NCBI GenBank assembly: GCA_019242465.1
Contig: JAFAVL010000603.1
Coordinates: 1-10,426 of the forward strand
Direction: 5' to 3'
From: Chroococcidiopsidaceae cyanobacterium CP_BM_RX_35
GTDB lineage: Bacteria > Cyanobacteriota > Cyanobacteriia > Cyanobacteriales > Chroococcidiopsidaceae
DNA length: 10,426 nt
A model generated the notes under the pieces. That model had not been told where the DNA came from. It did no database searches and worked only from the letters and a program-made list of their open reading frames with translations. Each line of letters opens with the position of its first letter. Positions within the stretch are counted from its first letter, which is position 1. The position numbers were made by a program, and so were the translations under genes. Shown piece by piece: positions 5,117 to 10,175 of this stretch.

Positions 5117-5929
5117 TTACTGCTTTTTTCCACAGACGATAAATCCTGTAAAAGAACAGAAAAATTCTTGGGATTGATCCATTTGTTGCAGTTCATGCAG
5201 CCAACCTTCTACCTCAGCTCGGCTGACTATTCCAGCTTCACAAGCTCTGTGAGTAGTCTGAACCAAATCAAATACTTGATTGGCTAATTCAAACTGAGTG
5301 ACAACCAGAGTCTCAGGAATCACCTGAATATCGGTTAATCCAACCCTGTGAAATTGTTTTGGCAAGTCTCTCCCTACCCAACCAGTTGGAAAGCTATCAC
5401 ACCAGAAATTGAGTAATTGACGGGTTAATGCATGATTTTCTGAATTTACAGTGAATGTTTCCCAGTCGGGCTCCATTGCCACAATATATCCGCCCGGACA
5501 AACAACTCGCGCCATTTCTGCGATCGCACGCTGTGGATCTGGAATGTGCTGCAATGTCCGATCAACCCTCGCACCCTGGAAGGTGTTGTCTTCAAACGGT
5601 AACTGTTGAGCCTTAGCCTGCACAAATTCAATCGGAAGGTTTAGCCCTTTTATGCCCTTTACAGCTTGATCCAACATTGCTTGACTATGGTCAATGGCAA
5701 CAACTTTACCGTGACTGCCAACTCGTTGTGCCAAAGCAATAGCATCTTTCCCCGTACCGCAACCTATCTCCAGCACGGAAGCTCCTGCATCTAAATGCAG
5801 CAACTCAAATGTCTTTTGCTTGTAGTTCTGAAAAAATTCCAAAGACGCAAGCACATTGAGACAATGCGTAAATTTTTCAACGGCATGAGTGCCATCAACA
5901 TCTTTAAAGCCACTTGCTAAATATGTCAT
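5117..5929 (-). CDS. Class I SAM-dependent methyltransferase (Methyltransf_11/UbiE-like)
   Basis: This 270-residue protein has the Rossmann methyltransferase motifs in order. Motif I is VLEIGCGTGKD (52-62), which binds SAM. The acidic end of strand beta2 is VVAID (D80). Next come AKAQQLPFEDNTFQGARVDR (106-124, motif II region) and LQHIPDPQRAIAEMARVVCPGG (126-147), followed by EPDWET. This pattern belongs to the small-molecule (type 11) group. The C-terminal 100 residues carry substrate specificity and contain no motif I recognise. The protein is soluble, with no signal peptide. The acceptor is unknown. A natural-product or lipid/quinone-like substrate is possible, but nothing next to it proves this. 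The start at 5929 is supported by a GGAGG just upstream. It contains a HIP1 site at 5520-5527. Confidence 0.85.
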   Translation of the reverse strand: MTYLASGFKDVDGTHAVEKFTHCLNVLASLEFFQNYKQKTFELLHLDAGASVLEIGCGTGKDAIALAQRVGSHGKVVAIDHSQAMLDQAVKGIKGLNLPIEFVQAKAQQLPFEDNTFQGARVDRTLQHIPDPQRAIAEMARVVCPGGYIVAMEPDWETFTVNSENHALTRQLLNFWCDSFPTGWVGRDLPKQFHRVGLTDIQVIPETLVVTQFELANQVFDLVQTTHRACEAGIVSRAEVEGWLHELQQMDQSQEFFCSFTGFIVCGKKQ

Positions 5930-6232: not shown

Positions 6233-7444
6233 ATGCTAATCACTTACCAGTACCGACTTTGCCCAACTTCTGCACAGACTGTCACAATGGAAGTCTGGGG
6301 AGAATTGCTACGTTGTCACTGGAACTATGCACTTGGTCAAAGATTAGACTGGTTGACCCGGACTCGGTGTCAGATTGACCGCTGCTCATTGGTAAGTGAA
6401 CCAATCGGCGGTGAGATAACAGAGAGGGTTGATTATTACACACAAGCATCGGAGTTAAAGCAAACCAAAGAATTATTTCCTGAGTACAAAAACATCTATG
6501 CTGACTGCCAACAGCAGAACTTGATGCGGTTGGACAAGGCATGGAAACGTTGGTTAACACCTGACAAGAACGGAAAAAAAGGAGGTAGACCGCGTTTTAA
6601 GAAACGAGGGGATGTTTGTTCATTTACCTTCCCGCGTGTTAACTCTTCAAAAGCAGGGGCGCACCTTATAGGAAGCAGTTTAAAGTTGTCTAAAATTGGT
6701 GAAGTTCCTGTTATCATGCACCGTCCAATCCCAGATGGCTTTGAAATTAAACAAGCAACAATTTTAAGTAAAGCAGATGGTTGGTACGTATCTTTTTCAC
6801 TAGAAGATAAGACCGTTCCTAATCCGATATCAGTTAACGATGTAAAAACTGCCACGGGAATAGATGTAGGTTTAGAGAAATTTCTAACAACGGCAGATGG
6901 ACAGAGCATAGAAGTTCCTCAGTATTACCGAAATGGTCAAATAGTACTAGCCCGTCAACAGCGTTTTCTCGCTCGTAAACAGAGTGGGTCTAACAACTAC
7001 AAAAGACAAGCGAATATTGTAGCCAGACATCATTTACATGTAGCTAGACAAAGAAAAGAGTTTCATTATCATGTCGCACATTGGTTGGTTAACTGTTATG
7101 ACTTGATTGCGTTTGAAGACCTTAGCATTAAAGGTCTGGCTAGAACCAGACTTGCTAAATCGATTCTTGATGTAGCTTGGGGTGGATTCCTTCAGATATT
7201 GCAAGCAGTTGCGGTAAAGCGCGGCAAATATATTGTAGGAGTCAACCCTAGAGGAACAAGTATTAATTGTTCTTCTTGTGGTCAAAGAGTTGAAAAAGAT
7301 TTGTCGGTTCGAGTTCATAGCTGTAGCTGTGGACTAGTAATAGATAGGGACTGGAATTCTGGAATTAATATCTTGAATCGAGTTCTTGGGGCGGTGGGAC
7401 TACCGCTTCCTGGCGCTCGGTGGGCTAGTGGTTACACACCCTGA
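6233..7444 (+). CDS. tnpB: TnpB RNA-guided endonuclease (IS605 OrfB family)
   Basis: The protein has 403 residues, full length for this family. The N-terminal helix-turn-helix domain begins with YQYRLCPTSAQ. The GGRPRFKKRGD-x-x-SFTFPR segment (117-135) is typical of OrfB. The RuvC-like nuclease residues are all present: D211 in TGIDVGLEKF, E295 in IAFEDLSIKGLA, and the DRDWNSGINIL motif with D371/D373. The zinc finger is C346-x2-C349 with C364-x-C366, a CxC second half instead of the commoner CxxC. It may still bind zinc. TnpB nucleases use an omega-RNA from the element's right end to cut DNA beside a short target-adjacent motif, which helps the element persist. The frame is uninterrupted, so activity is plausible. 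A TACAAT at 6221-6226 may be a -10 element. The ribosome site is weak. Confidence 0.93.
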   Translation: MLITYQYRLCPTSAQTVTMEVWGELLRCHWNYALGQRLDWLTRTRCQIDRCSLVSEPIGGEITERVDYYTQASELKQTKELFPEYKNIYADCQQQNLMRLDKAWKRWLTPDKNGKKGGRPRFKKRGDVCSFTFPRVNSSKAGAHLIGSSLKLSKIGEVPVIMHRPIPDGFEIKQATILSKADGWYVSFSLEDKTVPNPISVNDVKTATGIDVGLEKFLTTADGQSIEVPQYYRNGQIVLARQQRFLARKQSGSNNYKRQANIVARHHLHVARQRKEFHYHVAHWLVNCYDLIAFEDLSIKGLARTRLAKSILDVAWGGFLQILQAVAVKRGKYIVGVNPRGTSINCSSCGQRVEKDLSVRVHSCSCGLVIDRDWNSGINILNRVLGAVGLPLPGARWASGYTP

Positions 7445-7535
7445 GAAGCAGCAAGTCTCATTTGTGAATTTGAGAAGCCCTCACTATATTGCTTGCAATT
7501 AGTGAGGGAGTTGTCACAAGAGAATGTTTGGAAAA
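7380..7535 (+). ncRNA. Probable omega-RNA (right-end guide RNA) of TnpB
   Basis: In characterised TnpB systems the guide RNA scaffold covers the 3' end of tnpB and the element's right end. The guide is the roughly 16-20 bases just outside the element. Here the region holds the end of tnpB, a repeated TGAGAAGC (7442-7449 and 7471-7478), and a strong terminal hairpin at 7478-7508. If the right end is at 7517, the guide would begin at 7518. The 5' end of the RNA and the exact boundary are inferred. Confidence 0.4.
7478..7508 (+). repeat. Right-end hairpin of the TnpB element
   Basis: CCCTCACTA (7478-7486) pairs perfectly with TAGTGAGGG (7500-7508). After a single-base bulge, ATTG (7488-7491) pairs with CAAT (7496-7499) around a CTTG loop. 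GTTGTCAC follows directly and is the likely tip of the element. Confidence 0.65.
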
Positions 7536-7696
7536 TCTATAATTTAACTCAGTACAAATGAAGCTATTGATAACCTATGTTTAGCAAAAGGAACAAAATG
7601 GTCGTCAAGGCTGCAACCCTTATCTGACAAAGCTTTTGATTAGAGTTCTTGCATAAGTTAGGCAGTCTTGGGAAGACCCAACCCGTAGTTGTATAG
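7518..7696. other. Non-coding stretch between the TnpB element and transposase remnants
   Basis: No gene can be supported here. A short GTCTT-GGG-AAGAC hairpin lies at 7665-7677. The preceding GAGTTCTTGCATAAGT (7643-7658) resembles an insertion-sequence terminal repeat, but no partner copy was found. This is probably decayed IS sequence. Confidence 0.35.
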
Positions 7697-7858
7697 CCCA
7701 GCGATCAAAGAACAGGAAAGATGCAGTGGACTCGAGAGGGAGCACATCAGATTTTACAAGTTCGAGCCACGATGGTTGGTAATCAGTGGGAAGATATCGG
7801 GACACAGACCGTGTTATCTGCTCTAGTGGCTCAGACTTGGATGGTTTTGTCACGTTAA
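7697..7858 (+). pseudogene. C-terminal remnant of a transposase (ISKra4/ISLre2-like tail)
   Basis: The frame is open from just after a TAG at 7694-7696 to the TAA at 7856-7858. The translation contains RTGKMQWTREGAHQILQVRA, then a 25-residue tail ending VAQTWMVLSR. A G-M-x-W-T-x-x-GA-x-x-x-L-x-x-RA pattern is typical of the very end of ISKra4- and ISLre2-type transposases. Nothing of the catalytic domain is present upstream. The family is uncertain, but the remnant nature is clear because the frame is stopped directly upstream. Confidence 0.55.
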
Positions 7859-7878
7859 TCTGTTACGCTCCCATGTGT

Positions 7879-7977
7879 CATCGACGACTAACTATTGATT
7901 ATGAAGCTTTGCCTGCCACTGCTGAAGCTTTTATCTATGCTGATATGGTTCGACTTATGGTAAGACGATTAGCGTAG
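7879..7977 (+). pseudogene. C-terminal remnant of an IS5-family transposase
   Basis: The frame encodes HRRLTIDYEALPATAEAFIY followed by ADMVRLMVRRLA and a stop. This is the characteristic end of the short DDE transposases of cyanobacterial IS5-group elements: R-x-L-x-x-DYE-x-LP-x-T-x-EA-x-IY, then a final RLMxRRLA. The catalytic Asp/Glu blocks are missing. The upstream junction with the previous transposase tail lies between 7858 and 7879. So one IS was inserted into, or deleted against, the other. Confidence 0.7.
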
Positions 7978-7985
7978 CAATCTAT

Positions 7986-8002
7986 ACTTCTCAGACATCC
8001 TC
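7986..8002 (-). repeat. Putative right terminal inverted repeat of the IS5-family remnant
   Basis: ACTTCTCAGACATCCTC lies nine bases after the transposase stop, at the usual distance for the right end of a short IS5-group element. Its complement would read GAGGATGTCTGAGAAGT outward-in. No left copy was found in the window, as expected for a truncated element. Confidence 0.4.
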
Positions 8003-8145
8003 TGAACGCAAAATTAACTGTTCCAGAAACACCATTTGATGCAATGAGAGAGAGCAAATCTCTAGCAGCTTTGAGAAAGCACAAGCACAAAGAAATACGC
8101 TCAAACGCAACAACTCCCATACGTAACATGGAAATAAAAATATGA
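8002..8145 (+). pseudogene. Decapitated reading frame, overlapping the start of the terpene-cyclase-like gene
   Basis: From the presumed IS5 end the frame stays open for 47 codons. It reads through LTVPETPFDAMRESKSLAAL and a basic stretch to MEIKI, then stops at TGA 8143-8145. That TGA overlaps the ATG of the next gene (ATGA at 8142-8145), a typical bacterial operon junction. A likely explanation is that this is the 3' end of an operon partner whose 5' part was removed by the IS. The translation matches no family I recognise. Alternatively, a short 33-residue ORF could start at ATG 8044, but no ribosome site precedes it. Confidence 0.4.
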
Positions 8146-8777
8146 TACCTACAGTTCTAGCCATTCTCAGCGGCATCTTTTGGACAATCACTTACATATT
8201 GATCATCCGACGTGCGACCCAAGATCAAATCATTGGGATGCCAATGGTGGCACCATGTATGAATATCGCTTGGGAATTTATCTTTTCGTTCGTGTTCCCA
8301 AGCAGTAAGCCTCAGCTTTATATCAATTACATTTGGTTCTTTATAGATTTAATAATTGTTATTCAGTACCTTAAGCTCAACCAATCAGAATTCATGAGGC
8401 ATCTGCCCAAACAGTTCTTTTATCCTACTTTCTTCTCAGTACTGATAGTTAGCTTTTTCAATATGTTATTTGCCACTTATGAGTTTGGTATTGTAAAAGG
8501 CTCTTACTACACTGCATTTGAAGATAACTTAATCATGTCAATGTTATTTACTCATATGCTCCTATCACGGAACAATGTTAAGGGTCAGTCTATTTACATC
8601 GCGATCACAAAAATGATCGGCACTGCATGTGCTTCTATCGTTGGATTTTCGTTATTTCCATCATCGCCGCTTTTAAATTTTCTTTATTTAGCAATTTTGA
8701 TATTTGATGGAGTGTACACCGTTCTACTTTATAGAGAACTTAGAGAACAAGGCGTTCTTCCCTGGAAGAGAGCTTGA
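8142..8777 (+). CDS. Integral-membrane terpene cyclase-like protein (Pyr4/PaxB family)
   Basis: This 211-residue, very hydrophobic protein has about seven membrane segments. Residues 33-54 (GMPMVAPCMNIAWEF, then IFSFVFPS) closely resemble the conserved CNIAWE-x-x-x-SF-x-YP region of the fungal cyclases PaxB and Pyr4. Near the C-terminus, IFDGVYTVLLYRELREQG matches their VDG-x-Y-x-x-x-Y-x-R block. The two acidic residues reported as essential in Pyr4 correspond to E45 and D189, and both are kept. Fungal members protonate or open an epoxide on a prenylated aromatic substrate to build indole diterpenes and meroterpenoids in the membrane. A cyclase role here is inferred. The start overlaps the upstream stop, and a weak GGAA lies eight bases upstream. 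The gene is visibly more AT-rich than the flanking chromosomal genes and is bounded by IS remnants, which suggests transfer or a degraded cluster. Confidence 0.72.
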   Translation: MIPTVLAILSGIFWTITYILIIRRATQDQIIGMPMVAPCMNIAWEFIFSFVFPSSKPQLYINYIWFFIDLIIVIQYLKLNQSEFMRHLPKQFFYPTFFSVLIVSFFNMLFATYEFGIVKGSYYTAFEDNLIMSMLFTHMLLSRNNVKGQSIYIAITKMIGTACASIVGFSLFPSSPLLNFLYLAILIFDGVYTVLLYRELREQGVLPWKRA

Positions 8778-9092: not shown

Positions 9093-10175
9093 ATGATTAA
9101 TCAATCCCAAAAAACAATGCCCCGCCTGGTTCTGCGATCACTAGTTTTCATGTGTCTTACCCTCAGTTGCCTGGTCAGAGGAAATTCCAGTGTTGCCCAG
9201 GCTAAACCCCTGACCGTGCAGACGGGCATCCAATTGCGGGAACTGCGCCTAAGTGATTCCGACCCGGACAAATTCAGGGCTAATTTTGTTATTTGGTTTA
9301 GTTGGCAACCTCAGCCGGGGCACGAGTGGTCGGCAGACAAAGTAAAGTTCACCAATGCGGTGGGGGATGCGACCATTAAAGTGCCCATTTGGACGAAGCC
9401 AACTTATGCCACTTCCGGGCAACGCTTCCAGGCCATGATCTACGAAGGGGACTTTAAAACCTTCAACCGTTATGAAGCCTTTCCCTTTGATACTCACTTC
9501 CTAGGTATCCGGCTGTTCTGCCCCAAGGCGGACTGTGGTGATGTTACCTTTGTCAGCACACCTCAACGGCTCACCCTAGACAGCTCAGTGCCCCGCATTC
9601 TCAGCGGCTGGAAGATCACAGGCATGGGGTTTGCAGTTCGCCACCTGAAGCTGCCAGCGGAATTAAACCTGCCCAAGGATCCGATGCTGCGATTGCCTAC
9701 AGCAGAATCTACCCTCTACAGTTTTGTGCTGCGGATCGAGCGCGATCTCGTATTTGGCATCCTACAGATTTTCCTGCCCATGCTACTGATCTGGCTGCTG
9801 GCCTATTTGGGTTTGTACTGGGAAGATTCCAGTCCAGCTTCTCGGTTTGGTTCCTCCGCCCTGTTTGCAGCAATCGCCTTTAATCTGGGAGCCCGTTTTA
9901 TGGAACCGGCTGTCTCCTATATCACCCTGATGAGTCTGGCTTTTCTCAGTCTCTATATCAATATTTTGGTGATTCTCAGTATTACAACCTTGTCCTTCTT
10001 CTTGCGCTTCCAGAAGCAGAGCCATGAGCGGGTGGTAACTTTGGCAAGATGGCTGGCTCCGACCCTGTTACTCTTAAACATCCTTGTGCTACTGCCTGTG
10101 ACTCCTTTGGGAAAGGCATTTTACTCAGAAGGCAAACTGGAGCAAATGCAATTCGTAAGTAGGTCAACCAATTGA
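9093..10175 (+). CDS. Prokaryotic pentameric ligand-gated ion channel homologue (Cys-loop/GLIC-like)
   Basis: This 360-residue protein has the size and architecture of bacterial pLGICs. A hydrophobic signal peptide (about 10-36, ending near SVAQA) precedes a beta-rich extracellular domain (about 38-215). That domain contains the signature RYEAFPFDTHFLGIRL (126-141), including the FPFD loop (130-133) that couples ligand binding to the pore. Four membrane helices follow: M1 at about 218-241, with the conserved Pro229; M2 (pore) at about 252-268; M3 at about 274-300; and M4 at about 316-337. The M3-M4 loop is short, as in bacterial members. C143 and C148 sit just after the FPFD loop. Eukaryotic channels have a 13-residue spaced Cys pair there and most bacterial ones have none. 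The ligand and ion selectivity are unknown. An alternative start is Met9 (9117). It probably forms a homopentamer in the plasma membrane. Confidence 0.85.
   Translation: MINQSQKTMPRLVLRSLVFMCLTLSCLVRGNSSVAQAKPLTVQTGIQLRELRLSDSDPDKFRANFVIWFSWQPQPGHEWSADKVKFTNAVGDATIKVPIWTKPTYATSGQRFQAMIYEGDFKTFNRYEAFPFDTHFLGIRLFCPKADCGDVTFVSTPQRLTLDSSVPRILSGWKITGMGFAVRHLKLPAELNLPKDPMLRLPTAESTLYSFVLRIERDLVFGILQIFLPMLLIWLLAYLGLYWEDSSPASRFGSSALFAAIAFNLGARFMEPAVSYITLMSLAFLSLYINILVILSITTLSFFLRFQKQSHERVVTLARWLAPTLLLLNILVLLPVTPLGKAFYSEGKLEQMQFVSRSTN

Follow-up and report, generated by a model that had tools for sequence, protein, structure and literature searches.

The window analysed here, a 10,426-nucleotide stretch of contig JAFAVL010000603.1, carries on its forward strand an intact open reading frame (ORF) at 8142–8777, with an ATG start and a stop codon, which encodes a protein of 211 residues. 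The protein belongs to the Pyr4-type transmembrane terpene cyclases, and its sequence, its predicted structure and the analogy with characterised relatives make it quite likely that it is a working enzyme acting on a prenyl chain. Both the ORF and its kinship with Pyr4 and PaxB had been proposed in the original prediction from the DNA letters, and both are borne out: hmmscan against Pfam-A aligned residues 2–197 with PF25129 (Pyr4-TMTC) at E 2e-29 and 103.3 bits, where the curated cut-off of the family is 27 bits. Besides PF25129, the Pfam list up to E ≤ 10 held only a Myb domain (E 0.15, below its own cut-off), and NCBIfam returned a single chance-level entry (E 9.1).

A protein search gave 136 relatives at E ≤ 1e-3, and PF25129 was present in all 120 that were listed. 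The nearest named relatives among the matches listed are all cyanobacterial (P0009 from Chroococcidiopsis, P0018 from cyanobacterium TDX16, P0035 from Nostoc and P0040 from Halotia), in agreement with the cyanobacterial origin suggested earlier, and the gene is probably, by its sequence, a member of a cyanobacterial branch of cyclases. P0009 is 70% identical to the window protein and already bears the NCBI name 'transmembrane-type terpene cyclase'. A 2026 survey whose starting set was 62 known Pyr4-like cyclases, bacterial in six cases, describes the family as compact and names the bacterial members XiaH, TylF (tolypodiol), GroF and ZigF (PMC13307353). A tolypodiol cluster has been proposed for a Nostocales cyanobacterium in a paper that, in its accessible part, mentions neither TylF nor Pyr4 (PMC8073705). 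With these bacterial cyclases named and tolypodiol being cyanobacterial, the class was already on record in bacteria, cyanobacteria included, and the novelty that the original prediction saw in a cyanobacterial cyclase was overstated; the window gene adds another member to an already described class. Like Pyr4, PaxB, DmtA1, XiaH, TylF, GroF and ZigF, all of PF25129, the protein is compact and has seven helices (predicted), and the family profile covers almost its full length.

Conserved residues of the Pyr4-type protein

The residues that matter most in this class can be judged from mutants of the bacterial cyclase DmtA1 (PMC6173783). There, E60A, E60Q, W29A, W59A, Y33A and Y33F were without activity, D214A retained very little and D214N more, Y217A and N56A were poorly active and Y217F better, while D94 and E133 were also important and were described as unique to DmtA1-3. 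Seven of these nine residues, the two acidic ones and five further functionally tested positions, have counterparts in the window protein: W14, Y18, N41, W44, E45, D189 and Y192. The spacing of the first five is identical (29-33-56-59-60 in DmtA1, 14-18-41-44-45 here), so that the N-x-x-W-E pattern with its early glutamate is present, as is the late aspartate with a tyrosine three positions on.

In an alignment of 137 members, W14 (codon 8181–8183; DmtA1 W29) is tryptophan in 133 and Y18 (8193–8195; Y33) tyrosine in 136. The motif NIAWE does lie at residues 41–45 (8262–8276), as had been noted; its N41, W44 and E45 correspond to DmtA1 N56, W59 and E60 and are kept in 135, 135 and 132 of the 137 proteins. 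D69 on helix 3 (8346–8348) is aspartate in 137 of 137, the sole invariant position among the twelve counted. Ahead of helix 6 stands GQS, residues 148–150 (8583–8591), with G in 125, Q in 130 and S in 134 members. D189 and Y192 on helix 7 (8706–8717), counterparts of DmtA1 D214 and Y217, are kept in 133 each. The C-terminal block that the original prediction placed at residues 188–199, with D189 in it, is indeed there, although the residues between its two tyrosines number four in FDGVYTVLLYRE and not the three claimed.

Predicted fold and proposed mechanism

The AlphaFold2 model of the window protein has a mean predicted local distance difference test score (pLDDT) of 95.4 and seven main helices (residues 2–28, 36–51, 58–79, 90–115, 117–142, 151–171 and 176–202), as expected from the roughly seven-pass protein proposed earlier, with E45 inside helix 2 and D189 inside helix 7. 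In Foldseek comparisons the predicted fold unexpectedly resembles the KDEL receptor, cystinosin and the SWEET sugar transporters of the PQ-loop superfamily, and the model has the 3+1+3 heptahelical arrangement of that superfamily. The same fold is predicted for L001, a distant relative discussed below, but the two results are not independent, since the L001 alignment has 45 of its 46 rows in common with that of the window protein. Unlike these structural neighbours, the window protein has no detectable sequence relation to them and no PQ motif in helices 1 and 5, its sole PQ being P57-Q58 at the start of helix 3; the Pfam list to E ≤ 10 contains no PQ-loop, MtN3_slv or ER-lumen-receptor match, and neither a single-sequence nor a profile search found a relative in the PDB. 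By analogy with the characterised cyclases, its function would differ from that of the KDEL receptor, SWEET and cystinosin.

A sequence-level link to the semiSWEETs was considered and dropped. Against a profile of 38 semiSWEETs (from 60 loci, 9 of which were skipped as the frame was not found and 13 dropped for length or identity), hhalign gave P 0.019 in register and 0.010 out of register, with an in-register score of 15.9 below the 16.9 of the out-of-register window. The score of 15.9 was reached by none of 100 block-shuffled profiles, and reversed profiles stayed below 12. In a search for a possible internal three-helix repeat, local alignments of the two halves of the window protein place D69 opposite D189, but only weakly (P 0.14 and 0.09), and a run in global mode gave P 0.36 across only 4 columns.

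The predicted fold offers a structural frame for the family, suggests where a pocket may lie and proposes an evolutionary origin. On this model, and by analogy with DmtA1 and Pyr4, the seven helices would enclose a pocket within the bilayer, in which E45 on helix 2, tuned by N41, W44, Y18 and W14, would most likely be the proton donor to a terminal alkene or epoxide of a prenyl chain dissolved in the membrane. D189 and Y192 on helix 7 would assist, and the resulting cation could then close one or more rings. The acceptor that carries the chain and the enzymes for its biosynthesis would be encoded elsewhere in the genome.

Relatives and the signalling-linked branch

Alignment A2 draws on 80 of the 120 proteins listed among the 136 found. 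The tree of the family has 137 rows, without proteins shorter than 195 residues and without P0022, and L028, L029, L031 and L043 enter it as trimmed segments. It is rooted at the midpoint only, and long branches are flagged as uncertain, among them L049, L050 and L043 in the deep branch and others elsewhere. The window protein groups with 36 relatives (support 100/98), including all four named cyanobacterial proteins. In this branch E45 is present in all 36 proteins. D189 is found in 35 of the 36, and the remaining one, P0040, diverges from just ahead of this residue to its end.

Two homologues, 49% and 47% identical to the window protein, lie on Nostoc plasmids. With dN 0.16 and dS 0.78 between them, purifying selection acts on the pair. 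One is on a stretch with genes of the nonribosomal peptide synthetase type; the C057 homologue lies 372 bases before a gene annotated as isopentenyl phosphate kinase (AA_kinase by Pfam), and C052 has a methyltransferase gene nearby. Neither plasmid record contains a UbiA match. A contig scan of genomes with one sequence recovered L001 alone, which is 28% identical to the window protein, and viral contigs and phage records yielded no relative.

Of 395 genomes sampled from the phylum of the L001 genome, a Bacteroidota group, 24 had PF25129. The neighbourhoods fetched come from 22 of these; that of G001 is L001 itself, and G382, a fragment, was left out. Seven relatives (L001, L043, L046, L048, L049, L050 and L051) form a deep branch with support 100/100, and their neighbours point to signalling: SpoIIE phosphatases (L001, L048), a guanylate/adenylate cyclase (L049), TPR histidine kinases (L046, L051), and kinase-AAA-GAF proteins that end in a cyclase (L050) or in SpoIIE (L043). 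In a second sample PF25129 was found in 6 of 149 and 18 of 123 genomes, some of which repeat, and 18 new places were fetched, the fragments G490:C175 and G485:C43 being left out. All 18 score higher with a model of the deep branch than with one of the window branch; they stand outside the tree and were assigned by this score.

Across the 25 loci of deep-branch type, a signalling output gene adjoins or is fused to the cyclase-like gene in 16, a raw count, like the other adjacency counts here, from loci that are related to one another and without formal control. SpoIIE is the neighbour in L001, L048, L132, L134 and L136, with a 4-base overlap in each, and in L043; a nucleotide cyclase in L049, L050, L139 and L143; and a histidine kinase in L046, L051, L140 and L142. 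In two further proteins (L138:4803-7292, 829 residues; L141:3798-6254, 818 residues) PF25129, HisKA and HATPase_c are fused in a single chain, with a middle region that has no Pfam match and with the counted cyclase residues intact. The remaining nine loci (L133, L135, L137 and L144–L149) showed no signalling output gene, L144, L146 and L149 lying near contig ends. A gene for an MPAB/Lcp-type oxygenase adjoins in 14 of the 25 (L001, L043, L048, L050, L132–L137, L142, L145, L147 and L149), called by Pfam in three and by BLAST or clustering in the others, the L149 copy being cut short. The row oxygenase, Pyr4-type gene, SpoIIE phosphatase recurs in L001, L048, L132, L134 and L136. These neighbourhoods were read with a simple longest-ORF caller; the cyclase-like genes of L028, L029, L043, L137, L139 and L148 come from a six-frame search, and the neighbours in L132, L134, L136, L139, L140, L142 and L143 were identified only by BLAST to reference neighbours. 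As a separate observation, a flavin adenine dinucleotide (FAD) amine-oxidoreductase-type gene by Pfam (L143:3190-4950) overlaps the start of the Pyr4-type gene in L143, and an ORF of the same 586-residue length does so in L146 (L146:1679-3439).

The glutamate and both aspartates are kept in 25 of 25 of these loci, with W44 replaced in three and N41 in one, and, like the window protein, these proteins match PF25129 above its cut-off. Their branch differs from it in being distant in sequence, in often standing beside or being fused to signalling output domains and beside the oxygenase gene, and in having mostly lost GQS (G in 0 of 7, Q in 0 of 7, S in 5 of 7), which is conserved in the window branch. 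The loss of the key residue is seen in another branch, of 14 proteins from the first sample, where alanine replaces E45 in five (L037, L041, L044, L045 and L047) while the aspartate is kept. The proton donor is therefore not kept throughout the Pfam family, and a change of function in these five is possible. Among the 22 neighbourhoods of that sample, whose genes were partly scanned, UbiA genes adjoin the cyclase-like gene in at least two (L040, L042), and L042 has on the other side a FAD gene resembling geranylgeranyl reductases.

Taken together, the fold and the signalling loci raise the tentative and somewhat doubtful possibility that Pyr4-type cyclases are enzymes on a SWEET/KDEL-receptor fold, and that PF25129 also holds bacterial seven-helix input modules that retain the glutamate and aspartates, are coupled to histidine kinases, nucleotide cyclases and SpoIIE and are often accompanied by an MPAB/Lcp-type oxygenase. 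If so, prenyl lipids would be ligands of the family, and perhaps its substrates, in signalling and in natural-product formation alike, and the unlinked cyanobacterial branch of the window protein could serve lipid metabolism and not a classical gene cluster. The kinase fusions provide a testable case for lipid sensing on the same scaffold. A literature search on terpene cyclases with histidine kinases gave no report of a Pyr4-type/kinase pairing; the closest paper concerns another transporter-receptor fold (PMC11109136).

Weighing the function in its genomic setting

In favour of a cyclase stand the profile match along almost the entire chain, the seven DmtA1-type residues, the conservation of E45 and D189 within the window branch, purifying selection between the two Nostoc plasmid homologues, and the isopentenyl phosphate kinase and UbiA genes close to some relatives. 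Several points weigh against a working cyclase in the window. The 10 window ORFs scanned against Pfam included no terpenoid gene, and so none of the partners whose search had been suggested at the outset (UbiA-type prenyltransferase, FAD epoxidase, polyketide synthase). The annotation of the two Nostoc plasmid neighbourhoods shows none either, although several genes there are labelled just 'hypothetical'. Two Streptomyces plasmid relatives likewise had no prenyltransferase nearby, a weak test because L028 is unannotated and its scan covered 8 of 18 crude ORFs, of which 7 had no Pfam match. The published survey reports terpenoid genes nearby for only 264 of 1107 bacterial candidates (PMC13307353). 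One branch of PF25129 is tied to signalling genes and another has five members with alanine for the catalytic glutamate, so that membership alone is no proof of catalysis; and the tree has no characterised cyclase sequence on it. The window gene stands apart from characterised Pyr4-type clusters, which usually have such linked partners, although these do not define the family. It also differs from TylF, by description of the same enzyme class and very probably the same phylum, which belongs to a known biosynthetic pathway with its gene cluster. Since the survey kept only the 264 candidates with terpenoid genes nearby, mining based on clusters can skip genes of this kind, and the window gene enlarges what is probably a cyanobacterial branch of them.

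The strongest rival, in view of the fold and the signalling branch, is that the protein is a binding protein or receptor of KDEL-receptor/SWEET shape, which holds a ligand via E45 and D189. The match to the KDEL receptor, cystinosin and SWEET would suit it, as would the deep-branch proteins that keep the glutamate and both aspartates while fused to histidine kinase domains or encoded beside SpoIIE, nucleotide cyclase or kinase genes. However, no gene for a kinase, a phosphatase or a nucleotide cyclase turned up beside the window gene or is annotated beside the two Nostoc plasmid homologues, and the window protein lies in a separate branch and has retained the seven DmtA1-type residues as well as GQS, so we regard a receptor as unlikely and a cyclase as the better account.

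Less probable still, and in our view quite improbable, is a decaying passenger of mobile DNA without current function in this genome. The gene does lie downstream of an IS605-type TnpB/OrfB gene (6233–7444, forward strand, Pfam match) and of a gap (7445–8141) without a Pfam-recognised gene, the first 73 bases of which match a Nostoc plasmid at 82%; the gene has a GC content of 0.37 against 0.46 for the window, and two homologues are plasmid-borne. A small ORF in the gap (7786–7977), without a Pfam match, presumably resembles the tail of a transposase. Yet the ORF is intact, all counted family residues are kept and the branch of 36 relatives is well conserved. A SWEET/PQ-loop transporter is the least probable reading of all, given the missing PQ motif, the missing Pfam matches and a semiSWEET comparison no better in register than out.

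The Pfam-matched genes of the window are a PmbA/TldD-type peptidase, an amylosucrase-like GH13 enzyme, a class I methyltransferase and the TnpB-type gene; the other six ORFs scanned, including one for a 283-residue protein, have no Pfam match. The methyltransferase (Methyltransf_25/Ubie; 5117–5929, reverse strand) is separated from the cyclase gene by the TnpB gene. It was considered as a gene common to the window and the Nostoc C052 neighbourhood, an idea given up because the two are generic methyltransferases of 23% identity. Further downstream, on the forward strand, the ORF at 9093–10175 has no Pfam match up to E 1, but by phmmer its product is related to the proton-gated pentameric channel GLIC (E 3e-10 to PDB 6hz0).
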